Assembly: GCA_018993265.1 (NCBI GenBank)
Contig: JAGKSW010000080.1
Span: 1 to 39,749, forward strand
From: Nostoc sp. TH1S01
Lineage (GTDB): Bacteria > Cyanobacteriota > Cyanobacteriia > Cyanobacteriales > Nostocaceae
DNA length: 39,749 bases
Direction: 5' to 3'
Shown here: positions 19,436 through 34,483 of the stretch, piece after piece
Numbering within the stretch: position 1 is the first letter of the stretch
Layout of the letters: the number at the start of each line of letters is the position of its first letter
Program-made: the position numbers and the translations under genes
The notes under the pieces: generated by a model
The model's database searches: none
The model's input: only the letters and a program-made list of their open reading frames with translations
What the model was told of the DNA's origin: nothing

Positions 19436-20074
19436 ATGGCCTTTAGTAGTTATAAATCCATTGCTGAAGTTCTCAAAACATTTCAGATTATCTACACTGA
19501 AGCTAATTTTGTTCTAGCAACAGAGTTTAATATTTCCCATTATTTTCGAGAAGACTTAGCAATTGTTATGCGCGAAGGTGTAGTGGATAATTCTGAATTT
19601 GCTATTTGTGAAAACTTAATTTATCCTGTCCTGAAAGAAGTTTGGAAGCAGTACAATAGTAAGTTCACTTTATGGAGTCATCAATCACTAAATTATGATG
19701 AGCAATTATCAGCATTTCCTGAGTATATTTTAGCTAAACGTTCACCTTTAGGGAAAATCGTTTTTGATAAACCATACTTTATTTTAGTGGAAGCCAAGCA
19801 AGATAATTTTGAAGCATATTGGGCGCAATGTTTAGCAGAAATGATTGCTGCTCAAAGACTTAATCAAGAATTTTCAGTGATTATCTACGGTATTGTTTCT
19901 AATGGTGCAGTCTGGCAATTCGGTAAACTAGAAGCACAAAAATTTACCAGAAATATTACACCTTACACTATTTATGAATTAGATAATTTATTTGCCACTG
20001 TCAACTATATTTTTCACCAATGCCAATTACAACTAGATAATTTACTGATATCTCAGCCTAATCTTTCAACTTGA
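19436..20074 (+). CDS. Predicted PD-(D/E)XK-like hypothetical protein
   Basis: A 212-residue soluble protein conserved among cyanobacteria as far as I recognise it, with no named function. The region FPEYILAKRSPLG...KPYFILVEAKQDNFEAYWAQCLAEMIAAQ looks like a PD-(D/E)XK nuclease core: a proline plus acidic residue, then the E-A-K of LVEAK, then a QC/AQ helix. Without a structural comparison this remains a prediction. The start ATG at 19436 is set by a strong AGGAGGTG ribosome-binding site at 19425-19432 (the GTG at 19430 lies inside it). Its 3' end overlaps the convergent Rieske gene by 22 bases. Confidence 0.65.
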   Translation: MAFSSYKSIAEVLKTFQIIYTEANFVLATEFNISHYFREDLAIVMREGVVDNSEFAICENLIYPVLKEVWKQYNSKFTLWSHQSLNYDEQLSAFPEYILAKRSPLGKIVFDKPYFILVEAKQDNFEAYWAQCLAEMIAAQRLNQEFSVIIYGIVSNGAVWQFGKLEAQKFTRNITPYTIYELDNLFATVNYIFHQCQLQLDNLLISQPNLST

Positions 20075-21117
20075 TTTCGCATCAATCTTTGTACACTTAC
20101 TAAAGCTCGGTTTAATTCATAATTACGTCGTTGCGGATTCTGTAAATATGCCTGTTGTTCTTCTTCAATCATTTGTACATCTTGCACAACTAAACCCTCA
20201 AGTAATTTTTGGGCTGCATTAAATAAACTATTTTTGACAAACTTTCTAAACCCTATAGGTAATTTATGCAATCGCCAAAAGGCATTGAGTGATGTGAAGT
20301 GAATTAAATAAGCTTTAGTTTGTGTCTCATTGACAGGACACAATAAACAATAAATTTTAAAATCTTTGCCTAATGTAGATTGCCAATGGGGATAAATATA
20401 ACTGACATCTAATGGTTCTGGATGTAGTTTTCGCAATGCGGGAAAAAATAACTGGGAAATCGACCAAATTTTATCGATTTTATAATAACTTTGGGCTGTA
20501 TAATGAGCATCTACACGGTGTTCATTTTCATCAATATCTTGTAAAGATGCTGCTGCCCAAGCTTGTAAATCTTGATGTAAATGTCCGTGATACATATCCA
20601 TCAAGTTTTCAATTAAATAAGAATAATGGGCTTGACAATTAATTACTGTCACTGAAGCAATATAATTCAAATGTTCCCACTCTGGTAAACCCATTGGTTC
20701 GACAGATAATTCTGCATTACCAGGAAACAGCCAGATAAAACCGTCTTGTTCTTTGACTGGGTAGCGGCGAATTTGACAGTTTGGTAGTTTTTGATTTGCA
20801 GCTAAATAAGGAACTTCTGTACATTCACCAGATGAATTGAACCGCCAACCGTGATAAGCGCATTCCAATTCATTACCGATCGCTTGTCCGTGGCTAAGTT
20901 TAACTTGCCGATGGGGACAACGGTCTTCTAAAGCGTGGATTTTACCTGTATTATCGCGGTAAAGTGCGATCGCCTGATGCCAAAGTACCACTCCCAGAGG
21001 CTTATTTGTTACCTCATTACTCTGTGCAACTACATACCAGTGATTAGGATTAATGCCTAATTGACGCACATCACCAGTTTGCACTGTTTGAGAGAGAGAT
21101 GACATAGACTCGTACAT
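20053..21117 (-). CDS. Rieske [2Fe-2S] aromatic ring-hydroxylating oxygenase, alpha subunit
   Basis: A 354-residue non-heme iron oxygenase. The Rieske cluster ligands are CPH (Cys67, His69) and CAYH (Cys86, His89). The mononuclear-iron site follows in ENLMDMYHGHLHQ, which holds the usual Asn/Asp bridge and the two His of the facial triad. It resembles the cyanobacterial group related to pheophorbide a oxygenase, chlorophyllide a oxygenase and Tic55-like proteins, which act on pigments or aromatic compounds. The substrate here is unknown, and electron donors are not encoded nearby. Met1 at 21117 and Met5 at 21105 are alternative starts. The last 22 bases overlap the convergent neighbour. Confidence 0.88.
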   Translation of the reverse strand: MYESMSSLSQTVQTGDVRQLGINPNHWYVVAQSNEVTNKPLGVVLWHQAIALYRDNTGKIHALEDRCPHRQVKLSHGQAIGNELECAYHGWRFNSSGECTEVPYLAANQKLPNCQIRRYPVKEQDGFIWLFPGNAELSVEPMGLPEWEHLNYIASVTVINCQAHYSYLIENLMDMYHGHLHQDLQAWAAASLQDIDENEHRVDAHYTAQSYYKIDKIWSISQLFFPALRKLHPEPLDVSYIYPHWQSTLGKDFKIYCLLCPVNETQTKAYLIHFTSLNAFWRLHKLPIGFRKFVKNSLFNAAQKLLEGLVVQDVQMIEEEQQAYLQNPQRRNYELNRALVSVQRLMRNQVERLG

Positions 21118-21855
21118 TATTTTTATCTTGAGACTTTCAATGTACTGCCCACTTTTTGTAGATTCAGGTGCAGCTAAGAATAGCTTATCAGTAAGACACT
21201 CATCTATTTTAAAGAATACATATTACTTGCAGAGCTTGCGATCGCGTCCTTCTACATCATCGCTATTAGAGCTAATTTGTAAACTAAAGTAAAATACTTA
21301 CCTTGTAAGGGTTCCAGGAAGTTGAGTTAATACAGTACTTATTCGCTGAAACTTAGACCTCGTAATGAGTTGAGTCTCCTTAAAATTTTCTTTACGAATC
21401 AGATCTAAGCTACAACAATGGGTGCGGGTTGTGGAAAACCGAGAAGCTAACCAAGCGTGCGGCAATAGTCGATTGCCAATCTGTGGAGAATGGAACAATG
21501 GTGTCACAGGATCTTGGTTTTGATTGCGGCAAGTTAGTAAAAGGACGTAAACGCCATTTGCTGGTAGACTACTAGGATTGGTCTTAATGGTTGTAGTGAC
21601 ATCAGCATATGAATCAGACCAAGCGGGAGCAAAGAAATTATTTGCACAAGCCTACAACAGGATCAGCGATCGCCTGACACGGTTAGTTTGTATTTGGGTT
21701 GATGCTGGATACCAAGGTGAGGGTTTTATGAAATGGGTTATGGACACTTAGCATTGGATTTTAGAGGTTGTACGTCGTCCAACTGATACCAAAGGCTTTG
21801 TTCTTCTACCAAAACGTTGGGTTGTTGAGCGCAGTTTTGGTTGGTTTAATTGGTG

Positions 21856-21911
21856 AGCCAGCGCGTTGCGGGGGTTTCCCCCGTTGTAGCGACTGGCGAA
21901 CCCGAAGGGTG
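21856..21911. mobile_element. 56-bp repeat inserted in transposase pseudogene
   Basis: Flanking GGTG occurs at both ends (21852-21855 and 21908-21911). Taking out 56 bases restores the transposase frame exactly. The insert, beginning AGCCAGCGCGTTGCGGG and containing the palindromes GGGGG/CCCCC and CCAG/CTGG, matches the dispersed repeat at 10143-10184. Confidence 0.7.
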
Positions 21912-21925
21912 TCGCCGGTTAAGTA

Positions 21926-22045
21926 GTGAAACAAAATTAATTACACAAAGTCATTGCGAATGCAGCGAAGCGAAAGGAAGCAATCGCAAGGGCTGGGATT
22001 GCTTCGCTTCGTTCGCAATGACTGTAATTAATTTTGCGTGGTTAC
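21926..22045. mobile_element. 120-bp MITE inserted in transposase pseudogene, 7-bp target duplication
   Basis: TTAAGTA lies at both boundaries (21919-21925 and 22046-22052). Excising 127 bases restores the transposase reading RLSKDYE. The ends are inverted repeats sharing AAAATTAATTACA and GTCATTGCGAA in both arms (21926-21960 and 22012-22045). The central part (GCAGCGAAGCGAAAGGAAGCA...) is a motif scattered widely in cyanobacterial spacers. Confidence 0.8.
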
Positions 22046-22249
22046 TTAAGTAAAGACTACGAAATTTTACCGCATACCCATGAAACATTTGTGCAAGTCG
22101 CAATGATTCGGTTAATGCTGAGAAGACTTGCTTGATTGATTAGTTTCATACTTGACAAACATCCTCTCAGAGATTGATAAATATTTTCTGGCTTTAAGTT
22201 TAAAGATGCGCCATCTTCTTCATCACCATTTAAAGCAGCTTCTTTTAAT

Positions 22250-22270
22250 TTTTACCTTTTAACTTTTGAC
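22250..22270. repeat. Heptameric short tandem repeat (3 x 7)
   Basis: TTTTACC-TTTTAAC-TTTTGAC, just downstream of the AI-2E transporter gene. Confidence 0.6.
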
Positions 22271-22294
22271 TTTATTTTGCCCCTAGCCCCTAAA

Positions 22295-23431
22295 TTAATC
22301 TTCTTTTGGCAAATTCTCTTCCACAGAAGTAGGGGGATTTTCCTCATACAATTCATCATGATTATTAGGAGGGTTGCAAACTATCACCACTTCAGTTTCT
22401 TTGGAGTGATGAATTCCCCATTGGTCTAATACATCTTTGATTAAAATTTCTTGTACCCAAATTTTAGCAACAACTGTTAAAGGTAAGGCTAAAAATAATC
22501 CTAAAAAGCCGAAGAATGTTACAAAAAATAGTTGAGAAATTAAGGTCACAGCGGGTAACAATGAAACTTGTTGCGCCATAACATAAGGTGTAATAAAATT
22601 ACTTTCAGTTTGTTGAATAAAAAAGTAGAGAATCAAGACAGCAACAGACTTCCAAGGGTTATCTAATAAAGCGATCGCCATAGCTGGTATTACACTCATT
22701 GTTGGGCCTAAGTTGGGTATCAAGTTCAAAAATCCTGCCAAAATTCCTAAAGCCAAGGCTGCTTTTACACCCAAAACTGATAAGCCAACCACACTCATCA
22801 AGCCGACGACACCCATCGCAATTAGCGCACCTGTTACCCATCCTTGCAATGAAACTTCGCATTTATCTAAAATGCCATCTACCCGACGGCGATAAAACGA
22901 AGGAAACACGCGAATAAAGACTCGGCGGTAAGCTAAAGGATCAGCTAACAGCATCCCAGTCCACACCAGCACCAACAAAACCTTCAGAACAACTTCTAAA
23001 GAACTGGAGACAAACGCAAAAGAACTCCCCAAGACACGATTGATAAAAGGTTGTGCTTGCTGAATTAAACTATTGAGATCGGGAATGTAGGGAACTAATT
23101 GGCTAGGAACCCTGGTTTTCATTTCATCCAGCCAACTATTAAAGCGTTCTAAACCTTGGGGAACCCGGTAAGTTAATTCATGAAATTGTTGGGCAAAAGG
23201 TGGCACAATCAACAGGAAAAAACCCACCACCACAGCAAAAAAGATAGCTACCGAAAGCAGTACAGCAAATCCCCGCTTCAGGCCAAGGCGTTGGAAACGC
23301 TTTGCTAACCGATTTAACGTGGTTGCTAACACCACGGCGGCAAACATCAGCAACAAAACTTCTTTGATTTGCCACAAGATGTATAAAGAAAGAACTATGG
23401 CGATTAAACCGATCCATTGACCAAGGTTCAC
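22295..23431 (-). CDS. AI-2E family (PerM/UPF0118) transporter
   Basis: A 378-residue membrane protein with about eight hydrophobic helices: a pair at the N-terminus (WIGLIAIVLSLYILWQI, LLLMFAAVVLATTL), a third near 55-80, then a soluble stretch (~85-140), and the typical C-terminal group including GILAGFLNLIPNLGPTMSVIPA, the family signature. The last ~45 residues are polar and acidic. Family members have been linked to AI-2 export, cation/proton exchange or hydrophobic-compound export, so the solute is not predictable. It lies upstream of a small membrane-protein gene on the opposite side of FtsH. Confidence 0.88.
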   Translation of the reverse strand: MNLGQWIGLIAIVLSLYILWQIKEVLLLMFAAVVLATTLNRLAKRFQRLGLKRGFAVLLSVAIFFAVVVGFFLLIVPPFAQQFHELTYRVPQGLERFNSWLDEMKTRVPSQLVPYIPDLNSLIQQAQPFINRVLGSSFAFVSSSLEVVLKVLLVLVWTGMLLADPLAYRRVFIRVFPSFYRRRVDGILDKCEVSLQGWVTGALIAMGVVGLMSVVGLSVLGVKAALALGILAGFLNLIPNLGPTMSVIPAMAIALLDNPWKSVAVLILYFFIQQTESNFITPYVMAQQVSLLPAVTLISQLFFVTFFGFLGLFLALPLTVVAKIWVQEILIKDVLDQWGIHHSKETEVVIVCNPPNNHDELYEENPPTSVEENLPKED

Positions 23432-23516
23432 AGGCTGACTCCCGGCTGTTGGTGTGATGCTTCTGGTGATGCAGTTAGGTTAGCTGATTTTAGCGATAAC
23501 GCCCAGATGATTTAAG

Positions 23517-23708
23517 TTAAGTTTGTTTTTGGGTTTGGAATCGCCGGAATAAAGCGATCGCCATGATCACAGTCGGTGACAAAACTAAGATTAAGGCGTT
23601 TGCCATCGTCGCAGGAACCGGCACACTTGGCAAAATGTACTTAATTACCGCAGATAACAAAGCTGACAGTACAAGTAGTTTGGCAATAAAAATTAGCTGG
23701 TTTGGCAT
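23517..23708 (-). CDS. Small two-helix membrane protein
   Basis: A 63-residue protein consisting essentially of two transmembrane helices (about residues 4-22 and 33-52) and a short basic tail (RRFQTQKQT). The open frame extends to 23795, but the upstream residues are not hydrophobic and the ATG at 23708 gives a sensible start (MPNQLIFIAK). I know similar small proteins as cyanobacterial hypotheticals, without an assigned role. It is ~85 bases upstream of the AI-2E transporter gene on the same strand, and could be co-transcribed with it. Confidence 0.55.
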   Translation of the reverse strand: MPNQLIFIAKLLVLSALLSAVIKYILPSVPVPATMANALILVLSPTVIMAIALFRRFQTQKQT

Positions 23709-23801
23709 AGCAGTACGGCAATTCACCTTTTCCTGTAGGGTATACCCGAATATAGGCTCAATGGAAGACTCTCTACAATATTCATATAAATACACAACCT
23801 A

Positions 23802-23829
23802 GAGGTTAGGGGCTAGAGGCTAGAGGCTA
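23802..23829. repeat. Heptameric short tandem repeat (4 x 7)
   Basis: GAGGTTA-GGGGCTA-GAGGCTA-GAGGCTA lies in the divergent spacer before ftsH. A second set of degenerate repeats (GTCAAGG/GTCAAGA/GTCAATA) follows at about 23899-23925. Confidence 0.75.
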
Positions 23830-23996
23830 GTGTGTTTTGTGCTGCACTCAGAAAAACTTTGAGTTCAACAACTTCAGCCGAAAACATCGCCTTATTAGTC
23901 AAGGGTCAAGAGTCAATAGTAAATAGTAATCAATTTTTTCACTATGGACGATTGACTATGGACTTTTGACAAAAAATTAATCAAGGATACATCAAA

Positions 23997-25934
23997 ATGC
24001 CTGTAGAAAAAAATAACAAAAATTCTATCAAACCGCCGCGCATCCGGCAGTTTGGTGGTAGCTTACTAATTCTGGTGACTCTGTTATTACTGCTTAATTT
24101 TATTGTTCCTAGTTTCTTTGGCCCGCGATTGCCACAAGTGCCTTATAGTGACTTTGTTGCTTTAGTACAACAAGGTAAAGTAGACCGCGCCGTTGTGGGA
24201 AGCGATCGCATTGAGTATACTATCAAAGCACAAACTCCCGATGGCAAAACTACTGAACAGGTATTTGCGACTACACCCGTTGCCCTAGATTTAGATTTAC
24301 CTAAAATTCTGCGCGAGAATAAGGTTGAATTTGCTGCACCCTTACCAGACCAAAATAGTTGGATTGGTACTCTCCTCAGTTGGGTTGCACCTCCATTAAT
24401 ATTCTTTGGGATTTGGGGCTTTTTAATTAATCGCCAAGGTGGTGGCCCGGCTGCACTCACAGTTGGTAAAAGCAAAGCCCGGATTTATTCTGAAGGTAGC
24501 ACAGGGGTAAAATTCCCTGATGTGGCTGGGGTAGATGAAGCCAAAGCCGAACTCGAAGAAATTGTAGATTTTCTCAAGAATGCGACCAAATACACCAACT
24601 TAGGCGCGAAAATTCCTAAAGGTGTGTTGTTAGTTGGGCCTCCGGGTACAGGTAAAACACTACTAGCAAAAGCGATCGCTGGGGAAGCGGGCGTTCCCTT
24701 CTTCAGTATTTCGGGTTCAGAATTTATCGAATTGTTCGTTGGTGTTGGTGCGGCGCGTGTCCGTGATTTGTTTGAACAAGCCAAACAGCAAGCGCCTTGT
24801 ATTGTCTTCATCGATGAATTAGACGCGTTGGGTAAATCTCGCGGTGGTGCAGGTGGATTTGTCGGCGGTAACGATGAACGGGAACAAACCCTCAACCAAT
24901 TACTCACCGAAATGGATGGCTTTGATGCCAACACTGGGGTAATTATCATTGCTGCAACCAACCGTCCCGAAGTACTAGACCCTGCTTTGCGCCGTCCTGG
25001 ACGCTTCGACCGTCAAGTTGTGGTCGATCGCCCTGATAAAATTGGTCGAGAAGCAATTCTCAAAGTTCATGCACGTAATGTTAAATTGGCGGATGATGTT
25101 AACCTCGCCACCATCGCCATCAGAACTCCTGGTTTTGCTGGTGCAGACTTAGCCAATCTTGTCAACGAAGCCGCATTGTTAGCTGCAAGGCAAAATCGCC
25201 CAGCCGTGACAATGGCAGATTTTAACGAAGCGATCGAACGGGTAGTTGCAGGTTTAGAAAAACGCTCTCGTGTACTCAACGAAACCGAGAAAAAGACCGT
25301 CGCTTATCACGAAGTTGGTCACGCCATCATTGGTGCGTTAATGCCTGGGGCAGGTAAAGTCGAAAAAATCTCCGTGGTTCCCCGTGGTGTCGGCGCATTG
25401 GGATATACCATTCAAATGCCAGAAGAAGACCGCTTCTTGATGATTGAAGATGAAATTCGCGGTCGCATTGCTACCTTATTGGGTGGACGTTCCGCCGAAG
25501 AAATCGTCTTTGGCAAAGTCTCCACAGGCGCGAGTGACGATATTCAAAAAGCCACCGACTTAGCCGAACGTTACGTTACCTTGTATGGGATGAGCGATAA
25601 ACTTGGCCCTGTCGCCTTTGAGAAAACCCAACAGCAGTTTCTTGATGGTTACGGTAACGCCCGTCGCGCTATCAGTCCCCAAGTCGCCCAAGAAATTGAC
25701 CAAGAAGTAAAGCAAATAGTAGATAACGCTCATCATATTGCTTTGAGCATTCTGCAACAAAACCGCGACTTGTTAGAAGAAACCGCCCAAGAACTACTGC
25801 AAAGAGAAATTCTCGAAGGTTCAGACTTGCGCGATCGCCTCAAGCAAGCCAAAGCCCCCGAAGAACTGTCAGAATGGTTACGTTCAGGAAATGTATCAGC
25901 AGATATACCCCTGATGCAATCTGTACTGAATTAA
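23997..25934 (+). CDS. ftsH: ATP-dependent zinc metalloprotease FtsH
   Basis: A 645-residue full-length FtsH. Two N-terminal membrane helices (~18-38 and ~122-142) flank a lumenal or periplasmic domain. The AAA+ module follows: Walker A GPPGTGKT at 214-221, Walker [10 protein letters not shown], and the second region of homology with RPGRFDRQ. The metalloprotease site HEVGH lies at 438-442, with the third zinc ligand expected in [13 protein letters not shown]. In cyanobacteria FtsH hexamers degrade damaged D1 and other membrane proteins. Several paralogs exist, and which one this is cannot be decided here. HEVGH rather than HEAGH is a tolerated variant. A strong terminator follows. Confidence 0.95.
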
Positions 25935-25949
25935 ATAATTAAATTTGTG

Positions 25950-25989
25950 TGGTGTGTTGTTGCAAAAGACAACACACCATATTTTTTTA
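25950..25989 (+). terminator. Rho-independent terminator of ftsH
   Basis: The 11-bp perfect arms TGGTGTGTTGT and ACAACACACCA with an 8-base loop are followed by ATATTTTTTT. Confidence 0.93.
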
Positions 25990-26108
25990 TGGCTTAAACA
26001 AGAAACCTCTCAAACTCTCATTCCTCAGCGTACTCTGTGTCTCTGTGGTTCGTAATACCCTATTCTGTGCTTAAAATAATTAACCGCAGATGGACGCGGA
26101 TGAATCTT

Positions 26109-26444
26109 TTAAGCCACACCATAATCTGTGTACTGTCTTTTATACGGAGGTTGCAGTCCCAAAACAATGTCATCTTTGGGAACACCCATCTTAACCAACT
26201 CTTCAGCCGGATTTTGATCTGTTAAATTCTGCTGAAGCCAGATTTTTCCGTTTTTAATGTCCAAGTGGATAATACAGCGATAAACGCGGTCAAATTGTTG
26301 CCAACCTACATTCATCCACTGATAATGATCTCGTTCTGTATCAAAGATAAGTTGCGTTTCAACCTGCTCATCTGAAATATCGTCACTAGCATAATCAGTA
26401 AGCAAGGTCTGAATGTACTCGCGGTATTTAGCTATTTTATCCAT
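26109..26444 (-). CDS. xisI: XisI family protein (fdxN element excision controlling factor-like)
   Basis: A 111-residue protein matching the XisI family closely: MDKIAKYREYIQTLLTDYAS, the central YQWMNVGWQQFDRVYRCIIHLDI and the C-terminal VPKDDIVLGLQPPYKR. In Anabaena, XisH and XisI are needed with the recombinase XisF to excise the fdxN element from the chromosome in heterocysts. However, xisHI pairs are spread widely in cyanobacteria with no fdxN element, so their general function is unknown. Its start overlaps a short ORF that resembles the end of XisH. An intact xisH is missing. Confidence 0.88.
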   Translation of the reverse strand: MDKIAKYREYIQTLLTDYASDDISDEQVETQLIFDTERDHYQWMNVGWQQFDRVYRCIIHLDIKNGKIWLQQNLTDQNPAEELVKMGVPKDDIVLGLQPPYKRQYTDYGVA

Positions 26445-26533
26445 TGCACAATCACCTCGTTTACCGGATCATAGCCCTGTTCTGTCACTTCCGGAAAACA
26501 ATAATCGTAGCGAAACACTGGACTTTTATCTAA
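26432..26533 (-). pseudogene. Probable C-terminal remnant of xisH
   Basis: A 33-codon open frame without a start, preceded by an in-frame TGA (26534-26536), ends in YDPVNEVIVQWIK and a stop that overlaps the xisI start by 13 bases. XisH proteins commonly end in a similar tyrosine-Asn/Asp-Pro...VIxQWI pattern and overlap xisI the same way. Only this tail is left. The match is short, so other origins are possible. Confidence 0.45.
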
Positions 26534-26712
26534 TCAAGGTTTGAGCTTTTCTTTTCTAATAGAAACTAAAATTTGTAGCCAAAAACTAAAAATTCAAGAT
26601 CCGAAAAGCTTTCAGCGATTGGGTTTTCCCAGTCAGACACAAGAGGCATAGACAACTAACAACACTAGATATTTTTGTAATGCTGTCTGTGTAAATTCAA
26701 GTTGAAAGACTT

Positions 26713-27585
26713 TTAGCTCCAAATTTTTTGAATATTATTTAAATTAATGTTTTCTATATATTTTGGGTGGAGTACGATCCTTATTTCTTCAGTTGTAATC
26801 TTACCTTCCTCTTCAATTGCATTCGCTATTGCTAATAAATTTAACTCCAACAATTGAGTAGGATTCAGTCGAATTCCTGTTACACCACTTCCAATTAATG
26901 GAATATTGATAGACTTACCTCGTGAATCAATACGTGCTTTCTTCCAAAATTTTTCTAGAGCAATCCACATTTTTGAAACATTGCAATTATCATCTGGGAT
27001 TTGTCCTTTTAGCTCAGTTTCAGTAAGAGCAAATAACATATAATCTTGACCATTCAACATCAGGGTTGCAGTAGTACCTAGAGGATAATATTTTTCTTTT
27101 TGCTGCGTTACACTTCTATATGATTCTTGATAAATTTCATACTGTAAAGCCTTAGATAGAGTTTCTTGATAAACATCAAATCCTCTATCCCCTTCATGGC
27201 TTGTAACAAACTTATGAATAAGTTTATTTTGTAGACTTGTAGCCACTACTTGAATTTCGTAAAAGTATCTACTAACGGGGATTACCTTAAAACCAGTAAA
27301 TGAAAATAAATCTCCAAAAATAATTTCTATTGAAGTATTTCCATATCTAAAATTTATACTTTTAGGTACAGCAGTTTTATAAGTTCCAATTAAACTGCTT
27401 ATTAATACAAAAGCAAAAAACTTTATTTCTCCGGAAAAGTATTTTCCAGCATTTTGTACAATACTAAGTAGAGGTTCTAAAATTGTCCAAATAGCCGCAT
27501 AAGCAATAAATATATTTACGAGAAAATGAAATGGCTTATTCTTGATGCCAATCTTAACTCGATGAAAAAAATTATTGCTATTCAT
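26713..27585 (-). CDS. Membrane-anchored macro domain protein (Thoeris ThsA-type macro domain, DUF6430-like)
   Basis: A 290-residue protein. Two membrane helices occupy about 19-40 and 55-72 with a short loop between. A macro-fold domain follows (~84-285), of the type found in ThsA of type II Thoeris. Landmarks are IEIIFGDLF (~86-94), GFKVIPVSRYF, YYPLGTTATL, the DYMLFALTETEL strand and SINIPLIGSGVTGIR, the phosphate-loop equivalent. In characterised type II Thoeris, a TIR enzyme makes an ADP-ribose-derived signal that binds this macro domain and triggers the membrane helices. The gene starts 40 bases after the enzyme gene upstream and should be its effector. I infer the defence role; the fold assignment rests on pattern recognition. 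Confidence 0.75.
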   Translation of the reverse strand: MNSNNFFHRVKIGIKNKPFHFLVNIFIAYAAIWTILEPLLSIVQNAGKYFSGEIKFFAFVLISSLIGTYKTAVPKSINFRYGNTSIEIIFGDLFSFTGFKVIPVSRYFYEIQVVATSLQNKLIHKFVTSHEGDRGFDVYQETLSKALQYEIYQESYRSVTQQKEKYYPLGTTATLMLNGQDYMLFALTETELKGQIPDDNCNVSKMWIALEKFWKKARIDSRGKSINIPLIGSGVTGIRLNPTQLLELNLLAIANAIEEEGKITTEEIRIVLHPKYIENINLNNIQKIWS

Positions 27586-27625
27586 GACTTTTAATTACTT
27601 TAATAATTGAACAGCATAGGCTCTT

Positions 27626-28411
27626 CTAGCTAGGCTTTCGACTATTGTTTTTATTACTGTTTGTCCTTTTCTGCTGTTGTGGTTCCTGATTAGTTTGATT
27701 TCCTAAAGCTACAAGTGCTTGTAAACTGTCAGGATTTTGTATTGCAGCAGTCATTAATTGACCAAAAAACTGCATTGTTAAAGCATTATTTTTATCCTCT
27801 CGGTCTTGCTCTCGTGTATTATATAAAACAGATACAATATTTGTGATTAGATTTATATTTTCCTTCATTTCAAAAAGGTCAATAGCCATTCTACTATTAA
27901 TTTGGTGAAGGTTAGCAATCATAGCTTGTTCATTATCTTCATCAGAAGATTGAGGAACAATAAAAGTAACTGGACTCGCTGCTGACCATCCCCCGTTCTC
28001 AATACTCTCAATTTGCCCTTTCAACTCAGATTTCGCATCCTCAACTGTGTCAAGTTCTAGTCGATAAAATACAGTACGAACATCATAAATATCAAACGGA
28101 GGTTTACTGTTATTTTCCATCATATGTATGAACGGTTTACGAATTGCATGGCGTATACCAAGTTCATACATTACGTTGGGATTTTCACCAGTCAAATCTG
28201 CAATTACTATATCTGCATCATTAAGTGCTTGTAAAACTTGTGTTGTTATTCTACCTGCTGTTTGTATTTGATCTGCTCTAATGATTTCATAGCTTAAATC
28301 ATCCAGAACAGGCTTAAGTATATGACGTAAAACTCCATCAGAGCGTTTTCTCTCATCAGAATCCGGTTCTCCGATGGGACAAGCTACAAAACAGGTTTTA
28401 GTTGCAACCAT
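27626..28411 (-). CDS. Nucleoside deoxyribosyltransferase/TIR-like domain protein with coiled tail
   Basis: A 261-residue protein. Residues ~5-115 have the nucleoside 2-deoxyribosyltransferase-like core: KTCFVACPIGEP at the first strand, NDADIVIADLTG (Asp67, Asp72) and NPNVMYELGIRHA with the presumed catalytic Glu83. This fold is related to TIR NADases. Residues ~150-230 are helical (NLHQINSRMAIDLFEMKENI, DREDKNNALTMQFFGQL), followed by a Gln/Asn-rich tail. Upstream of the macro protein in an operon, it is the likely NAD-dependent signal-producing partner, but NADase activity is inferred. A GTG at 28417 is an alternative start. The 5' region has a consensus-like promoter. Confidence 0.75.
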   Translation of the reverse strand: MVATKTCFVACPIGEPDSDERKRSDGVLRHILKPVLDDLSYEIIRADQIQTAGRITTQVLQALNDADIVIADLTGENPNVMYELGIRHAIRKPFIHMMENNSKPPFDIYDVRTVFYRLELDTVEDAKSELKGQIESIENGGWSAASPVTFIVPQSSDEDNEQAMIANLHQINSRMAIDLFEMKENINLITNIVSVLYNTREQDREDKNNALTMQFFGQLMTAAIQNPDSLQALVALGNQTNQEPQQQKRTNSNKNNSRKPS

Positions 28412-28714
28412 ACACACTTTCTATTAAATGTAGTATTTGAGTGCAAAACAGCTCATGCTAGAATAGTACATATGCTCGTATTCGTCAAGCTTCAGTATTG
28501 TTTATTACACTAACAAATTTAGCAATAGTAAAAAATTATAATTATTGAGCCAAAGCCATGTGCCAAGCAAATAGCGATCGCCATAATTAATCACTGCACA
28601 TCAATAAAGACTATCAAACCCACAACTTTCCTACCCCTACACCCACTCCCCATGTTCCTTAATCCGGCGAACTCACGTATATTTAAGGTGTAGCTGACTA
28701 TCTAGAGGTTTAAC
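28412..28714. other. Spacer between the NDT-like/macro operon and aroA
   Basis: The divergent spacer holds the minus-strand promoter at 28460-28488 and an AGAGG ribosome-binding site for aroA at 28704-28708. It has an AT-rich centre with one HIP1 octamer, and no gene is seen. Confidence 0.6.
28460..28488 (-). promoter_or_regulatory. Sigma70-like promoter of the NDT-like/macro operon
   Basis: On the minus strand TTGACG (28483-28488) and TATTCT (28460-28465) are separated by exactly 17 bases, about 50 bases upstream of the start codon. This is close to consensus and gives the pair its own promoter. Confidence 0.6.
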
Positions 28715-29995
28715 GTGGATACCATTGCTATACCTGCTCTTAATCGCCCAGTGGATGCCACGGTAGAGATTCCTGGTTCTAAAAGTATTACAAATCGGGC
28801 ATTACTTGTTGCTGCTTTAGCGCAAGGCGACTCAATTTTAGAAAATGCCTTATTTAGTGAAGACAGTGAATATTTTGCCAAATGTGTCGAAAATTTGGGG
28901 ATTCCCATCACCTTGAATCCTGACATAGCACAGATGCAGGTGTCAGGCAAAGGTGGGGAAATTCCCGCAACCCAGGCGGATTTATTTGTCGGTTTAGCAG
29001 GTACAGCCGCGCGGTTTATCTCAGCTTTGGTAGTACTCGGTAAGGGGGAATATCGCTTAGATGGTGTACCGAGAATGCGGGAAAGGCCAATGGGCGATAT
29101 GTTAACAGTGTTCCAAACAGGCGGAACAACCGTTAACTTTGAGGGTAATGCTGGCTATATGCCCTACACTATCTACAGTCAGCAATTTGCTGGTGGACAT
29201 ATTCGCATCAAAGCCAATCAAACTAGTCAACAACTTTCAGCCTTACTGATGATTGCGCCTTATGCTCAAAAAGACACAATTATTGAAGTGGAAGGCACAC
29301 TAGTTTCTCAATCTTACGTGAAAATGACTTGTCGCCTCATGGCAGATTTTGGCGTAGAGGTGAATCAAGTTGGCGACAATCAATTTCATATCAAAGCGGG
29401 ACAGCGTTACCAACCGCGACATTACACCATAGAACCAGATGCGTCGAATGCGTCTTACTTTTTTGCTGCGGCTGCTGTGACTGGTGGACGGGTGCGGGTT
29501 AAGTATTTAACCAAGCAATCTTATCAGGGTGATATTCTGTGGCTGAATGTTCTAGAACAGATGGGTTGTCAAGTACGTGAGGCTGATGATTATATCGAAG
29601 TTACCGGGCCAGAACAATTACAGGGTATTGATATTGATATGAATGATATATCTGACTTGGTACAAACATTAGGAGCGATCGCGCCTTTTGCCAATTCACC
29701 TGTTACCATCCGTAATGTCGAACATATCCGCTACAAAGAAACTGAACGCATCCGCGCTGTGGTGACTGAATTACGTCGCTTAGGTGTCAAGGTTGAAGAA
29801 TTTGCCGATGGGTTAAAGGTTGAACCTAGTCCAATTACACCAGCCGCCATTGAAACTTATCACGATCATCGTATGGCAATGGCATTTGCTGTCACAGGCT
29901 TAAAGGTTCCCGGAATTGTGATTCAAGATCCAGGTTGTACGGCTAAAACTTTTCCCGACTACTTCACCCGATTTTTTAAAATGATTCAACAATAG
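28715..29995 (+). CDS. aroA: 3-phosphoshikimate 1-carboxyvinyltransferase (EPSP synthase)
   Basis: A 426-residue enzyme of the shikimate pathway that transfers the enolpyruvyl group of PEP to shikimate 3-phosphate. The family marks are PGSKSITNRALL near residue 20, AGTAARF (substrate-binding), RERPMGD, the KETERIR Lys/Arg cluster and the TYHDHRMAMAF C-terminal motif. The start is GTG, supported by AGAGG at six bases' distance. Length is normal. It is a single-gene unit in a housekeeping part of the chromosome, next to hisS and a small conserved protein. Confidence 0.92.
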   Translation: MDTIAIPALNRPVDATVEIPGSKSITNRALLVAALAQGDSILENALFSEDSEYFAKCVENLGIPITLNPDIAQMQVSGKGGEIPATQADLFVGLAGTAARFISALVVLGKGEYRLDGVPRMRERPMGDMLTVFQTGGTTVNFEGNAGYMPYTIYSQQFAGGHIRIKANQTSQQLSALLMIAPYAQKDTIIEVEGTLVSQSYVKMTCRLMADFGVEVNQVGDNQFHIKAGQRYQPRHYTIEPDASNASYFFAAAAVTGGRVRVKYLTKQSYQGDILWLNVLEQMGCQVREADDYIEVTGPEQLQGIDIDMNDISDLVQTLGAIAPFANSPVTIRNVEHIRYKETERIRAVVTELRRLGVKVEEFADGLKVEPSPITPAAIETYHDHRMAMAFAVTGLKVPGIVIQDPGCTAKTFPDYFTRFFKMIQQ

Positions 29996-30066
29996 CTGGC
30001 TAATATTCAGTTCCTACCTTATCCTAACGATTATATTCACGCTAACCTACTTATAGGAGTTGCATC

Positions 30067-30513
30067 ATGTCTAACATACGTGAAGAAATGCCTGTACTGG
30101 CACGTCATGAAGGCGATTGGGTAGGAACTTATACACTAGTAGATACAGAAGGCAAAATTTTAGATAAACATAACTCGCATTTAAGCTGTCAATTTCCCGA
30201 TGATAGCCCTTATTCTTACTACCAAATCAATCGCTACACCTGGGCTGATGGTAAACAAGAAGAACATAAATTTCCCGGAACATATCGTGATAAATTCCTC
30301 TATTTTGATACAGAACGCATTGAAGGAAAAGCCTGGGAAATAGATGATTATACTGTAATTTTATGGTTTTCTTATAAGACAGTCCCAGCAGCATATTTGT
30401 ATGAAATGATTCAAATTAGTCCCGATAATAACTATCGCGCCCGCACATGGCATTGGTTTAAAAATCATCAAATTTACCAACGTACCTTAATTCAAGAACA
30501 AAGAGTTAGATAG
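30067..30513 (+). CDS. Conserved cyanobacterial small protein, lipocalin-like, function unknown
   Basis: A 148-residue protein rich in Trp, Tyr and His with beta-strand character: ARHEGDWVGTYTLVDTEGKI, then YYQINRYTWADGK, LYFDTERIEGKAWE, and ARTWHWFKNHQIYQRTLI. I know this as a cyanobacterial conserved protein of unknown function, with a possible lipocalin-like barrel. A DUF3598-like assignment is possible but unsure, since that family is usually longer. There is no signal peptide. The ribosome-binding site AGGAG lies ten bases upstream of ATG. It lies between aroA and hisS on the same strand. Confidence 0.65.
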   Translation: MSNIREEMPVLARHEGDWVGTYTLVDTEGKILDKHNSHLSCQFPDDSPYSYYQINRYTWADGKQEEHKFPGTYRDKFLYFDTERIEGKAWEIDDYTVILWFSYKTVPAAYLYEMIQISPDNNYRARTWHWFKNHQIYQRTLIQEQRVR

Positions 30514-30547
30514 TCATCTAAAAATTCAAAAATAGTTTCCAGCTAAG

Positions 30548-30578
30548 GTGCGTTAACGTAGTGTAACGCACTATTTTA
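30548..30578 (+). terminator. Terminator between the small conserved gene and hisS
   Basis: The 8-bp arms GTGCGTTA/TAACGCAC with an 8-base loop are followed by TATTTTATG. It lies ~35 bases after the small gene's stop and ~50 before hisS. Confidence 0.65.
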
Positions 30579-30626
30579 TGACATAATAGATAGTTCATTA
30601 TATTTAAATTTAAATAGATTACTCAC

Positions 30627-32015
30627 ATGGCAAAGACTGACAAAATTAACTTTTCTACTCCTAGCGGTTTTCCTGAATTTTTACCTAGCGAAAAACGTTT
30701 AGAATTATATTTACTAGATACCATCCGTAGAGTTTATGAAAGCTATGGATTTACACCCATAGAAACCCCCGCAGTTGAAAGGTTAGAAGTATTACAAGCT
30801 AAAGGTAATCAAGGCGACAATATTATTTATGGTATCGACCCAATCTTACCACCAAATCGCCAAGCAGAAAAAGATAAAGCCGGCGAAACAGGTTCCGAAG
30901 CACGCGCTTTAAAATTTGACCAAACTGTTCCTTTAGCAGCGTATATTGCCCGTCATTTAAATGAATTAACTTTCCCGTTTGCCCGTTATCAAATGGATGT
31001 CGTATTTCGGGGAGAAAGAGCGAAAGATGGACGTTTTCGGCAATTTCGCCAGTGTGATATTGATGTAATTGCGCGGCGTGACCTCAGCTTATTATATGAC
31101 GCACAAATGCCAGCAATTATCACCGAAATATTTGAGGCAATTAACATCGGTGACTTCTTAATTCGCATCAATAACCGCAAAATATTAACTGGGTTTTTTC
31201 AGTCATTAGGCATTGCCGAAAATCAAATTAAAACCTGTATTAGTATTATTGATAATCTAGAAAAAATTGGCGAAACTAAAGTCAAACAAGAATTAGAAAA
31301 AGAAGGTATTTCACCAGAAAATACCCAAAAAATTATTGATTTCATCAAAATTGACGGTAATGTTAATGAAGTATTAGATAAACTTAAACACCTGTCACAA
31401 AACTTACCAGAAGCCGAGCAATTTAGTTTGGGTGTGACTGAATTAGAAACAGTAATTACAGGTGTACGTAACTTGGGAGTTCCTGATAAACGTTTTTGTA
31501 TTGATTTAGCGATCGCCCGTGGTTTAAATTACTATACAGGCACAGTTTACGAAACTACCCTCATCGGTCATGAAGCATTAGGAAGTATCTGTTCTGGCGG
31601 CAGATATGAAGAATTAGTCGGGATGTTTATCGGCGAGAAAATGCCAGGAGTTGGTATTTCTATTGGCTTAACTCGCTTAATTAGTAGACTACTCAAAGCA
31701 GGTATTTTAAATACTCTACCTGCAACACCAGCCCAAGTAGTAGTAGTAAATCTGCAAGAAGATTTAATGCCGACTTATTTAAAAGTATCCCAACAGTTAC
31801 GCCAAGCAGGCATTAATGTAATTACCAACTTTGAAAAACGCCCATTAGGTAAACAATTCCAAGCCGCAGATAAACAAGGAATTAGATTTTGTGTAATCAT
31901 CGGTGCTGATGAAGCCGCAGCCCAAAAATCATCGCTTAAAGATTTGCAAACAGGCGAACAAGTAGAAGTAGCATTAGCAGATTTAGCTGAAGAAGTTAAA
32001 CTTAGGCTGATGTAA
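30627..32015 (+). CDS. hisS: Histidine-tRNA ligase
   Basis: A 462-residue class II aminoacyl-tRNA synthetase. Motifs are FTPIETPAVERLEVL near the start, FDQTVPLAAYIARH (motif-1 side), VVFRGERAKDGRFRQFRQCDID (motif 2 with the His-binding loop), ARGLNYYTGTVYETTL (HisA-type motif), GSICSGGRYEELVGMF (motif 3 region) and the C-terminal anticodon-binding domain. It charges tRNA-His. It appears to have its own promoter region. Length is normal. Confidence 0.94.
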   Translation: MAKTDKINFSTPSGFPEFLPSEKRLELYLLDTIRRVYESYGFTPIETPAVERLEVLQAKGNQGDNIIYGIDPILPPNRQAEKDKAGETGSEARALKFDQTVPLAAYIARHLNELTFPFARYQMDVVFRGERAKDGRFRQFRQCDIDVIARRDLSLLYDAQMPAIITEIFEAINIGDFLIRINNRKILTGFFQSLGIAENQIKTCISIIDNLEKIGETKVKQELEKEGISPENTQKIIDFIKIDGNVNEVLDKLKHLSQNLPEAEQFSLGVTELETVITGVRNLGVPDKRFCIDLAIARGLNYYTGTVYETTLIGHEALGSICSGGRYEELVGMFIGEKMPGVGISIGLTRLISRLLKAGILNTLPATPAQVVVVNLQEDLMPTYLKVSQQLRQAGINVITNFEKRPLGKQFQAADKQGIRFCVIIGADEAAAQKSSLKDLQTGEQVEVALADLAEEVKLRLM

Positions 32016-32300
32016 ATCCAAAATTTATCAGGGTGCTGGTGAAGTACCTACATGCTAGAGTAGGCGATCACATCCAAATTTTGACTTTGCCATTTAAAAT
32101 TGTCTCAAGAGTCAACCAGACCCATAAACGCGATCATGAATATCGTTTTGTCGTAAAGCACACCACTAAATTGCCGCATTGACGTAAATTACTTATGTGC
32201 CAAGTGTTTGCTCTGCTTCATCTGCAAACCTGAGTATACTTATAATGGTGCATTATAATACGAGTGTATTTCTACTTATATAACTTACAATCGACAAGAA
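32016..32300. other. Spacer before the AAA-TOPRIM gene, possible ORF remnant
   Basis: There is no confirmed gene. A GTG-started frame of 47 codons (32039-32182) reads VKYLHARVGDHIQILTLPFK... and ends at TGA; it may be a remnant or chance. The AT-rich block with TATAATGGTGCATTATAAT at 32241-32260 is a plausible promoter for the gene that starts at 32301. Confidence 0.35.
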
Positions 32301-33626
32301 ATGTATCATTTTGATCAAAGACCAGATACAGTATTCTCAGAGCAAACTCAACATTTACTGGAAGACATAAAGCAATCTAGCTATTCGGTCTTGTGTGGTC
32401 GCAACAATTGTGGAAAATCTTTTATATTAAAAACTCTCACTCAAAGTATTGGGGAAAAAGCTTCGTATCTGGGGCCAGCGAGATATCAAAATTTTCATGT
32501 CCTAGACTACTATACGCCCAATAGAAATAGAATAAAGGAACGATGGCATAGCTTTATAAGTCTCTGGCAGAATCAGCAACAAAATATAGATAATTCTCCT
32601 CTAAACTTGCAGCAAGCAATTGCTCAACTCAATGATCATAAGCGAGAGCAATTAATAGAAATCATGCAAAAGCTGTTGAATTCTAAGATGGAGATAAAGT
32701 TTTCTGTTCCAGAAAACTCGATGTCGCAAAAATATATATCTGTAGACGAACATAATATTTCCTTTACAAGTTCAGGTTATCGTCTAATTACTACTCTAGT
32801 TACATCGCTTTTGGATGAAGAGGCTGATACATTTCTTATAGACGAACCTGAATTAGGAGTAAGTCCTGAAGCACAAGGAATTTTTTCTGACTTTATATTT
32901 GATGAAAATGTTAGAGCTAAATACTTCAGTCACATTAAAACTTTAATTTTAGCGACACATTCAACTATTTTTCTGGATAGAAATAATATTTTAAATAATT
33001 ATTGGATTGAAAAAAAGAATAATTATATCGACATCTCTAAAGTTTCATCTGTTGCTGATATAAACAAAATTCACTTCTTCCTGCTTGGCAATAGATTAGA
33101 AGCATTATATATGCCTTCTGCCATTATAATAGTTGAAGGTAAATGCGATCATAAGTTTATTGAGAGAGTGGTAAGTACTCGATATGAAGGATTCAAGTTT
33201 AGTGTAATTCAAGCAAATGGTGATGGCAGGATACGCGAAGTATTCAATATAGCTAAAACCCTGTTCGGAGATATACAAAAAAGTCCTTATAAAGAAAGAA
33301 TTTTTGCGGTGTTAGATTCTGTACATGGAAAAGGTTTGGTTGAACAGTTGCAAAAGATGGGAGTAAGCCAAGAAAATATTGTTGTATGGACTAAAAATGG
33401 AATTGAATATTATTATCCACCCTCTATAATTAAGAGTATATTTTCTTCAGATAGTGAGTTAAGAATGAATGGAGATCGTATTTGTTCAAATGGCTTGGAA
33501 TATACAAAAAACGAGCTGGCTGATATGATCATCTCTAAAATTGATAAGAATACAGAATATAATCAGGAATTTTTGAATGAATTTTTAAGTAAAGTTGAAG
33601 CTGCTATTGGTATAACACGGTGCTGA
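32301..33626 (+). CDS. AAA-family ATPase with TOPRIM-like domain (OLD family-like)
   Basis: A 441-residue protein. The ABC-type ATPase half has Walker A GRNNCGKS (33-40), the signature SSGYR, Walker B TFLIDEPELGVSPEAQ (Asp181/Glu182) and an H-loop ATHSTIFLDR. The C-terminal half is a TOPRIM-like domain: the acidic glutamate in IIIVEGKCDHKF (Glu279), then FAVLDSVHGKG (Asp339), where a DxD would be expected and the second Asp is missing, and GIEYYYP. OLD-type AAA-TOPRIM proteins act as phage-defence nucleases (for example in Gabija, PARIS and retron systems). No partner gene lies beside it. It is a likely orphan defence gene; activity may be weakened by the altered TOPRIM motif. Confidence 0.75.
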   Translation: MYHFDQRPDTVFSEQTQHLLEDIKQSSYSVLCGRNNCGKSFILKTLTQSIGEKASYLGPARYQNFHVLDYYTPNRNRIKERWHSFISLWQNQQQNIDNSPLNLQQAIAQLNDHKREQLIEIMQKLLNSKMEIKFSVPENSMSQKYISVDEHNISFTSSGYRLITTLVTSLLDEEADTFLIDEPELGVSPEAQGIFSDFIFDENVRAKYFSHIKTLILATHSTIFLDRNNILNNYWIEKKNNYIDISKVSSVADINKIHFFLLGNRLEALYMPSAIIIVEGKCDHKFIERVVSTRYEGFKFSVIQANGDGRIREVFNIAKTLFGDIQKSPYKERIFAVLDSVHGKGLVEQLQKMGVSQENIVVWTKNGIEYYYPPSIIKSIFSSDSELRMNGDRICSNGLEYTKNELADMIISKIDKNTEYNQEFLNEFLSKVEAAIGITRC

Positions 33627-33676
33627 ATTTTAGTGATACTGCATAATAATTAAGCTAATTTGTACTATTAAAAATT

Positions 33677-34483
33677 ATGTTCAGACCTAATAGACTAAAA
33701 AAAATGCTCCAAGCCAGTTCTCAACCAATTGGGTGCTGGATTTTTTTCTCAGATAGTGACTCAATTGAACTTCTTTCTATGTGTGGGTTCGATGCCTTTA
33801 TCATCGACCACGAACATGGCGCGATGGAAATGGGTATCTTAGTAGAGCAACTCCGCGCCGCCCAGGCGACAGATGTTACTTGTATTTTGCGTGTACCTTC
33901 AAACGATCCAGTTTATATCAAGCGAGCCTTGGACATGGGTGTGGAAGGTATAGTCGTTCCGACTGTCGAATCAGCAGATGAAGCGCGAGCAATTGTCGCT
34001 GCAACCCGCTATCGACCTCATGGCGGACACCGAGGTGTCGGTTATCCAGAGAGCCGAGCAGCCAACTGGGGTTTAGCAGAGCTAGAATATGCTGCCAATT
34101 ATCAAGAGAACCTAATTGTAGCTGTTATCGTTGAAACTCGTCGGGGTTTTGAGAATGTTAAGGAAATTGCCGCAGTTGACGGGATCGATATGGTAATTTT
34201 AGGAGCAGGCGATTTGATGGCAGACATCGCAGACGATTTTGCTGCACTCACTAAGTTAGGAACGTACAATAATTCAGAACTTGACCGATTGTTGACGGAA
34301 GCCGAAGCGATAGTTCGTTCCACCCCTAATTGCTGGCTTGGCGGTGTCAGTCGTCATGCCGCAGGAGGTTGCGAACTATTTGCTAAAGGCTATGATTTCG
34401 TGCTACCTGCTGCTGATGGCTGGTTGCTGGCTGATGCTGCACGATCGCTTGTCGCTGCCATGAAAGGTAATCTGGGAAAATGA
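33677..34483 (+). CDS. HpcH/HpaI aldolase family protein
   Basis: A 268-residue class II pyruvate-type aldolase (4-hydroxy-2-oxo-acid aldolase/citrate-lyase beta superfamily). The catalytic region FIIDHEHGAMEM contains the conserved His45, and the metal ligands are Glu153 in VIVETRRG and Asp179 in LGAGDLM. RYRPHGGHRGVG provides the phosphate/pyruvate loop. The usual reaction is reversible cleavage of a 4-hydroxy-2-oxo acid into pyruvate and an aldehyde; the actual substrate is unknown. The gene ends nine bases from the convergent alpha/beta-hydrolase gene, and so belongs to the metabolic cluster to the right, although transcribed the other way. It shares its strand with the AAA-TOPRIM gene, 50 bases downstream of it. 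Confidence 0.85.
   Translation: MFRPNRLKKMLQASSQPIGCWIFFSDSDSIELLSMCGFDAFIIDHEHGAMEMGILVEQLRAAQATDVTCILRVPSNDPVYIKRALDMGVEGIVVPTVESADEARAIVAATRYRPHGGHRGVGYPESRAANWGLAELEYAANYQENLIVAVIVETRRGFENVKEIAAVDGIDMVILGAGDLMADIADDFAALTKLGTYNNSELDRLLTEAEAIVRSTPNCWLGGVSRHAAGGCELFAKGYDFVLPAADGWLLADAARSLVAAMKGNLGK

Follow-up and report, generated by a model that had tools for sequence, protein, structure and literature searches.

A cassette of a predicted NDT-fold enzyme gene and a membrane-macro thsA gene in Nostoc sp. TH1S01, a candidate Thoeris-like variant

Results

Layout and origin of the cassette

In the window, by which we mean the whole stretch of 39,749 nucleotides of Nostoc sp. TH1S01 that was analysed, two genes with complete reading frames lie on one strand at a distance of 40 bases, at the place and in the arrangement that the first-pass annotation had described from the letters. 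The features of the region are as follows.

26109..26444, minus strand: xisI, intact, a neighbour outside the cassette (PF08869, 2e-47, 1-110 of 110)
26445..26709, minus strand: xisH remnant, named by position and by eye (comparison with L178)
26710..28632: insert with both genes, about 1.9 kb, little else inside (blastn against L178 and L180, junction sequences)
26713..27585, minus strand: thsA gene, TM-macro ThsA effector of 290 aa (PF20016, PADLOC PDLC00410, hydropathy, match to 8v6q)
27586..27625, minus strand: intergenic gap of 40 bases, the enzyme gene being upstream of thsA
27626..28417, minus strand: gene of the predicted NDT-fold/TIR-like enzyme, 263 aa from GTG (phrog_3634, weak PF05014, PDLC00733, AlphaFold2 model, Foldseek)
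28488-28460, minus strand: promoter-like site TTGACG-17-TATTCT upstream of the enzyme gene (9/12 positions)
32301-33626, plus strand: OLD-like AAA gene with weak TOPRIM match, outside the insert

It is noted that for the enzyme the ATG at 28411 is a likelier start than the GTG, giving 261 residues; the residue numbers of the enzyme are counted from this ATG, and if it is the start, the numbering of Glu83 used earlier is right. The promoter-like site had been taken for a near-consensus promoter of the operon's own, which is not upheld, because sites of this kind are no commoner in the region than chance supplies (11 versus 9.9, sd 2.8, in shuffles). No terminator-like site was found in 26400-28720.

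The surroundings were compared with those in other genomes of the same genus. Ten genomes were searched for aroA, and the seven whose aroA is 91% identical or more were compared, the three that gave distant aroA matches only being left out. In five of the seven loci (L175-L178 and L180) both flanks lie on one stretch, and in all five the pair is absent between them; in L174 and L179 the similarity to the window is confined to the right of the pair. In L178 and L180 the flank similarity by blastn stops at 26709 and restarts at 28632-28633, and xisH continues there beyond the point where the insert of the window begins, while in L175, L176 and L177 a larger stretch than the insert is absent. The left end of the insert thus lies within xisH, a few bases from the stop codon of thsA, and the right end lies upstream of the enzyme gene, about 215 bases from its start. 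Because both genes are within one insert that is absent from the same-genus loci compared, they probably arrived together, into xisH. No convincing repeats were seen at the insert ends, and searching plasmids with the DNA of the insert gave no match. Among the ten same-genus genomes a PF20016 gene is present in G1096 only, where it is adjoined by a DUF4062 gene, and a genome-wide search of one of the ten, G520, gave no homologue of the enzyme. The G+C content is 30% and 36% in the two cassette genes versus 44-47% in aroA and ftsH, low G+C being not unique to the cassette (whole window 39.6%, AAA gene 33%).

As regards the neighbours, the decay of a xisHI pair reported before holds for xisH, which is broken, and does not hold for xisI, which is intact over PF08869 1-110 of 110. 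At 26475-26648 the xisH remnant also contains 174 bases that L178 lacks, a small and independent insertion. The AAA-TOPRIM gene described nearby does exist; it is OLD-like, its match to TOPRIM is weak, and it lies outside the insert, past aroA and other genes. A local defence island was considered and rejected, since the OLD-like gene, being outside the insert and behind housekeeping genes, gives it no support. By eye, no CBASS component was found among the ORFs of 20000-34000.

The membrane protein and its macro pocket

The downstream protein matches PF20016 (ThsA_Macro) with an E-value of 5.6e-29 and 101.6 bits, about four times the cut-off of 25, and matches the PADLOC ThsA model PDLC00410 with 2.9e-43 over residues 5-290 of 290, so that its earlier description as a ThsA of type II layout with a macro domain is borne out. 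The macro domain covers residues 86-273 and matches the ThsA macro structure 8v6q (3.1e-08). Before it stand two N-terminal hydrophobic stretches, at about 17-45 and 48-74, which agree, by hydropathy only, with the two membrane helices that had been described; one further hydropathy window above threshold starts from residue 86, within the macro domain. The best matches of five TM-macro proteins from other loci are other PADLOC ThsA models and not PDLC00410, and judged by these matches the ThsA of the window is on another branch than the five tested. Its identity to five other cyanobacterial ThsA proteins is 24-30%. In tblastn searches with this ThsA nothing was found among plasmids, and among phages there was one weak match (2e-3), where the adjoining gene looks TIR-like.

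For the pocket, we took 8v6q for EcThsA, because the residues that Shi 2024 (PMC11204291) gives by letter and number are in register with it. The ADPR-cleft residues compared were D83, L113, N114, S175, S217, G218, T220, H259 and K262, together with D100 of the loop. The ligand residues D83, S217, G218, T220 and H259 of EcThsA are kept as D92, S233, G234, T236 and H273 here, and S175 is replaced by Thr; from comparison of two alignments, L113 is probably also kept and N114 is probably Q119, K262 is not kept, and N96 and D100 of the pocket loop correspond to S105 and Y109. In EcThsA, D100 and N96 stabilise the pocket loop, and according to earlier work cited there, the BaThs system became inactive when the equivalents of D100 and N114 were changed together (Shi 2024, PMC11204291). 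Since D100, N96, K262 and probably N114 are not conserved, the binding may differ or fail in the protein of the window. A pocket that is present but altered fits with a ligand related to, yet different from, the ADP-ribose and adenine dinucleotides that ThsA macro domains bind according to Shi 2024 (PMC11204291), and it fits also with a weakened pocket.

Family and fold of the upstream enzyme

The upstream protein matches phrog_3634, a phage protein family of unknown function, with 5.8e-58 over residues 6-247 and profile positions 3-234 of 237, the C-terminal part included. Its match to PF05014 is below the cut-off (26.7 versus 28.8 bits, 6.4e-06), and it matches model positions 250-376 of the PADLOC model PDLC00733, 'Effector, TIR' of CBASS, with 1e-14; the model is matched by all 48 of the aligned enzyme rows described below. 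No Pfam match to PF08937 or TIR, or to DUF4062 (PF13271), was found in it up to E 10. The hhalign probabilities are 0.1% with 8 ThsB proteins, 0.4% with DUF4062 and, for the enzyme profile, 0.2% with LlNDT; these three comparison profiles are thin, and therefore the lack of a significant match does not show that the folds are different. With PDB chains the enzyme profile gave nothing significant, the best E-value, 0.012, belonging to a coiled coil, with DNPH1/Rcl at 0.018.

An AlphaFold2 model built from 48 sequences (mean pLDDT 84.1, pTM 0.61) has an alpha/beta domain of the NDT/TIR type at residues 5-138, followed by long C-terminal helices at 157-203 and 210-241, so that the long coiled C-terminal part noticed earlier is modelled indeed as long helices. 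Among the best 50 of 71 Foldseek matches (E up to 0.001), ranks 1-24 are NDTs and rank 25 is DNPH1, after which TIR proteins follow, with E-values of 1.5e-07 for the NDT 8rh3, 7.1e-05 for TIR-APAZ 8i87 and 1.9e-04 for TIR-STING 9lmq; against the NDT targets the TM-scores reach moderate values of about 0.5-0.7. The fold is therefore predicted to be NDT-like. The NDT and TIR folds are members of one superfamily, TIR-APAZ 8i87 and TIR-STING 9lmq are NAD cleavers, and Retron-Eco1, cited in PMC12774641, is reportedly a precedent for NAD hydrolysis by an NDT fold.

Active site and candidate substrate

The alignment of 48 rows consists of the protein of the window and 47 homologues, taken from the 73 of 80 loci with an intact frame of 200-420 residues. 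F8, R21, N77, N79, Y82, E83, R87 and P105-F106-D107 are identical in all 48 rows, E83 being the catalytic Glu. As reference NDTs we used ten cyanobacterial PF05014 proteins of the 11 above the cut-off (L191 being left out), and in all ten a Tyr stands opposite F8, an Asp opposite N79 and a Glu opposite E83 in three alignment modes. If the alignment gap before E83 is removed, the NDT Asp faces N77, which is likewise Asn in 48/48 rows. An alignment with LlNDT alone put C7 rather than F8 opposite the NDT Tyr; this register was set aside, because insert columns were dropped in it and the Y-L/F-A-x-P motif of the ten NDTs fixes the register in the three modes.

In eight aligned ThsB proteins both the Tyr and the Glu are kept (8/8). 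It is known that TIR ThsBs with TM-macro effectors can carry an NDT-like Tyr-Glu site, the Tyr being described for three ThsB subfamilies, and that Phe or Ala is the usual residue at the Tyr position of NADase TIRs (Shi 2024, PMC11204291). Thus, of the earlier proposal that an NDT-superfamily enzyme takes the place of a TIR, one part stands, in that the enzyme is not a ThsB_TIR by sequence and its model fold is NDT-like. The other part has to be changed: the proposal makes the active site more NDT-like than it is, and 'NDT in place of TIR' misleads on this point, as the enzyme shows the reverse of those ThsBs, a predicted NDT fold with the Phe that is common in NADase TIRs.

The two replacements bear on the substrate. 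The change Y7F makes CtNDT a more efficient catalyst with ribonucleosides, and Y5F enables BpNDT to use them (PMC12645435); the LlNDT double mutant Y7F/D72N, by contrast, is worse with ribonucleosides, and D92 of LlNDT contacts the 5'-OH (PMC11647913). If the NDT Asp replaced here by Asn is equated with D92 of LlNDT, as we infer from the alignment, the loss of this residue would remove the charge repelling a 5'-phosphate and so would suit a 5'-phosphorylated substrate. Consequently, the changes of Tyr to Phe and of Asp to Asn, each in 48/48 rows, favour a 5'-phosphorylated ribonucleotide as the putative substrate, NAD+ first.

The same residues weigh on another explanation, namely that we are dealing with a genuine nucleoside 2'-deoxyribosyltransferase or a deoxynucleotide hydrolase, and that a deoxynucleotide product acts as the signal or does the damage. 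The order of the fold matches, NDTs and then DNPH1, and the weak PF05014 match are what this explanation would predict, but both the Tyr and the Asp of NDTs are replaced throughout the 48 rows, the fold search returns also TIR-APAZ 8i87 and TIR-STING 9lmq, and the ligands of ThsA macro domains are ADP-ribose and adenine dinucleotides (Shi 2024, PMC11204291). We thus consider true NDT chemistry to be very improbable.

Occurrence of the pair

The occurrence of the pair was surveyed at the best 80 of 548 confirmed enzyme homologues in genomes (one locus, L086, being on the same contig as one row of the query alignment) and at the best 80 of 352 enzyme homologues in viral contigs, with flanks of up to 5 kb, some shorter. 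The ThsA profile, made from seven ThsA proteins, found 5/5 controls, one of them not in the profile, and 29/30 PF20016 loci, the fragment L049 being missed. ThsA was found beside the enzyme homologues in 0/80 of these genome loci and in 0/80 of these viral loci, where no match was better than E 0.39; conversely, the enzyme was found near other ThsA genes, within about 1.5 kb, in 0/29 PF20016 loci. A PF20016 gene is present in one of the 49 genomes with a close enzyme homologue (50 of the best 80 loci), and it does not adjoin the enzyme. The first-pass annotation had treated rare adjacency as evidence against its reading, and the two genes are in fact rarely adjacent, so that a conserved pairing is not supported: the pair was found once in the searches made and is unique among the loci searched. 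Single-protein scans of viral contigs with either protein gave no relative, the 8-residue patterns used being too strict.

At the 29 other ThsA loci a DUF4062-type gene is beside ThsA in 17 and a remnant of such a gene is near it in one, a ThsB_TIR-type gene is the partner in seven and an ATPase-like gene in one, and three have no partner, one being at a contig end and two being fragments. The 17 are counted on either strand and comprise 16 found by profile (L160 in pieces) and L004 found by a wider stretch; the remnant, near L049/L053, was recognised by eye. These partner labels rest on profiles built from members of the same sets. In a Pfam check of the partners, ThsB_TIR was found in both proteins tested (L051 and L052), DUF4062 was above the cut-off in L038, and two L041 proteins were below it (20.0 and 21.1 versus 24.7 bits). 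As DUF4062-type proteins such as those of L041 score below the Pfam cut-off, the result that PF13271, as an alternative partner, has no match in the genome of the window is a soft one. A ThsB_TIR partner may also be encoded elsewhere in that genome.

Note also that DUF4062-type TIR-like genes adjoin the majority of the TM-macro ThsA genes in the cyanobacteria searched (L037-L041, L050, L146-L152, L154-L156 and L160), and that some ThsA genes sit between two such genes (L041, L050). In Cohnella a TM-macro ThsA gene (L141:1237-2124) overlaps by 4 bases with an upstream gene like an SMC/AAA-type ATPase, with no TIR in view. The available part of a paper on DUF4062 (PMC13174449) mentions operons with defence genes and has no mention of the pairing of ThsA with DUF4062, and no other DUF4062 paper was among the literature matches listed. 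The pairing seen in the window was not found described among the matches listed from the open-access papers searched, a scope that excludes most subscription papers, and within this scope the earlier suggestion of an undescribed variant is upheld.

Relatives of the enzyme and their company

In L021 (736-1923, minus strand), from a cyanobacterium of the same order as that of the window, the enzyme domain (30% identity, blastp 4e-18) is fused to a macro domain. The latter belongs to the general Macro family (PF01661, 27.9 bits versus a cut-off of 22) and had no other match, ThsA included, by phmmer among the ORFs of 274 loci, which places it on another branch than the ThsA macro domains; the fusion thus supports a link of the enzyme family to macro domains and not to ThsA itself. 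Four loci from elsewhere in the wider phylum, L036, L055, L056 and L057, have a small TIR-like gene, by eye, that directly adjoins the gene of an enzyme-domain protein. L055, the one of the four scanned with Pfam, has an enzyme-domain protein with MAP3K_TRAF_bd/TPR-S and a small gene that is PF08937 ThsB_TIR. A further TIR gene stands next in L036 and, by eye, in L057. Judged by these assignments, the enzyme family keeps company with macro and TIR genes.

Homologues are also present in Staphylococcus and Streptococcus phages, in 40 records, of which 19 cover at least 80% of the query, and none of the three phage loci opened (L058, L059 and L274) has a ThsA as a neighbour. They are annotated as hypothetical; in SAP-26 and SA13 they lie among replication-type genes, with their neighbours on the other strand, and in Javan37 the homologue is in the repressor region. 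The phage-borne homologues look like defence cargo. A homologue about half identical in pieces, with broken frames and, by eye, adjoining toxin-antitoxin-like genes, is seen at L017/L035 (G237:C14), with no ThsA in view.

That homologues stand without ThsA implies that the enzyme can work alone, and it leads to the explanation that the two genes came to adjoin by chance in one mobile insert, the enzyme being a self-sufficient abortive-infection NADase and ThsA an orphan that has lost its own ThsB. The phage homologues covering most of the length, with no ThsA in the three phage loci opened, the varied neighbours around homologues in other genomes and the count of 0/160 homologue loci with ThsA (the best 80 of 548 plus the best 80 of 352) are all as expected from this explanation. 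By contrast, the location on one strand with 40 bases between the genes, the insert of about 1.9 kb with little else in it, the completeness of both frames and the enzyme-macro fusion in L021 argue against it. We regard chance neighbourhood as unlikely, while it deserves serious consideration.

Discussion

The cassette is real and complete, and it joins known types of parts in a rare new combination. We propose that it is a rare Thoeris-like variant in which ThsA, the membrane effector, responds to an ADP-ribose-type signal made by the enzyme, to which reading we give a probability of roughly 0.5. In the model, the upstream enzyme would be an NDT-fold N-glycosidase or base-exchange enzyme of the phrog_3634 family. 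Phage infection would be sensed, probably via the oligomerisation of the helical C-terminal part of the enzyme, upon which the enzyme would take as its substrate a 5'-phosphorylated ribonucleotide, NAD+ being the likeliest, and release ADP-ribose or an ADP-ribosyl base-exchange product. This product would bind the macro domain of ThsA, and ThsA would then oligomerise via its two-helix membrane part, damage the membrane and abort the infection.

A variation of this scheme is that two effectors act in series: the enzyme would only deplete NAD+, and ThsA would answer free ADP-ribose as a downstream killer, with no dedicated messenger. The macro domain of EcThsA does bind ADPR, and about 30-fold more weakly than IAD (Shi 2024, PMC11204291), and the DUF4062 protein Swarozyc, a TIR-like NADase, works by NAD+ depletion according to the available part of PMC13174449; the characterised TM-macro systems, on the other hand, point to base-exchange products that bind more tightly (Shi 2024, PMC11204291). 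The present data fit a dedicated messenger and ADPR in series alike; we hold the latter to be improbable.

Returning to the proposed signalling from the enzyme to ThsA, a wider interpretation can be put forward tentatively. TM-macro ThsA proteins could be plug-in killers for which a partner was recruited, each time independently, from at least three enzyme families with hardly any sequence resemblance to one another (ThsB_TIR, DUF4062 and the NDT-fold phrog_3634), and here the Phe/Asn enzyme could make from NAD+ a new ADP-ribosyl messenger that is read by a divergent macro pocket; we see this as a possible, somewhat doubtful extension. If the enzyme feeds ThsA, the large phage- and plasmid-borne family of phrog_3634 and its kin would become a testable class of makers of NAD+-derived signals, and Thoeris signalling could do without the classical ThsB TIR.

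Comparison with known systems

The enzyme resembles the phrog_3634 proteins over residues 6-247, the C-terminal part included, whereas no ThsA accompanies the phrog_3634-type homologues at the loci examined in phages, viral contigs and genomes. It resembles the CBASS effector model PDLC00733 ('TIR') over model positions 250-376, while about 250 N-terminal positions of that model are absent from it. With the NDTs (CtNDT, LlNDT) and DNPH1 it shares the predicted fold and the catalytic Glu; it differs from NDTs by the Tyr-to-Phe and Asp-to-Asn changes (48/48), by the extra helical region and by a PF05014 score below the cut-off. The DUF4062 NADases, such as Swarozyc, are likewise a TIR-like NADase family and are the usual cyanobacterial neighbour of TM-macro ThsA, but they have no detectable profile similarity to the enzyme (hhalign 0.4%), and Swarozyc, as described in the available part of PMC13174449, acts without ThsA.

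Compared with type II (TM-macro) Thoeris (EcThs, BaThs), the cassette differs in that no ThsB with a TIR domain was found as the neighbour of thsA in it (Pfam up to E 10; hhalign 0.1% to 8 ThsB), the enzyme being not ThsB_TIR (PF08937) by sequence and having Phe in place of the Tyr that is invariant in the 8 aligned ThsBs; in addition, the enzyme has a helical C-terminal part, and ThsA has a divergent pocket loop. What the cassette has in common with type II Thoeris is a TM-macro ThsA, an enzyme of the TIR/NDT superfamily with a catalytic Glu, and the small size of the whole.
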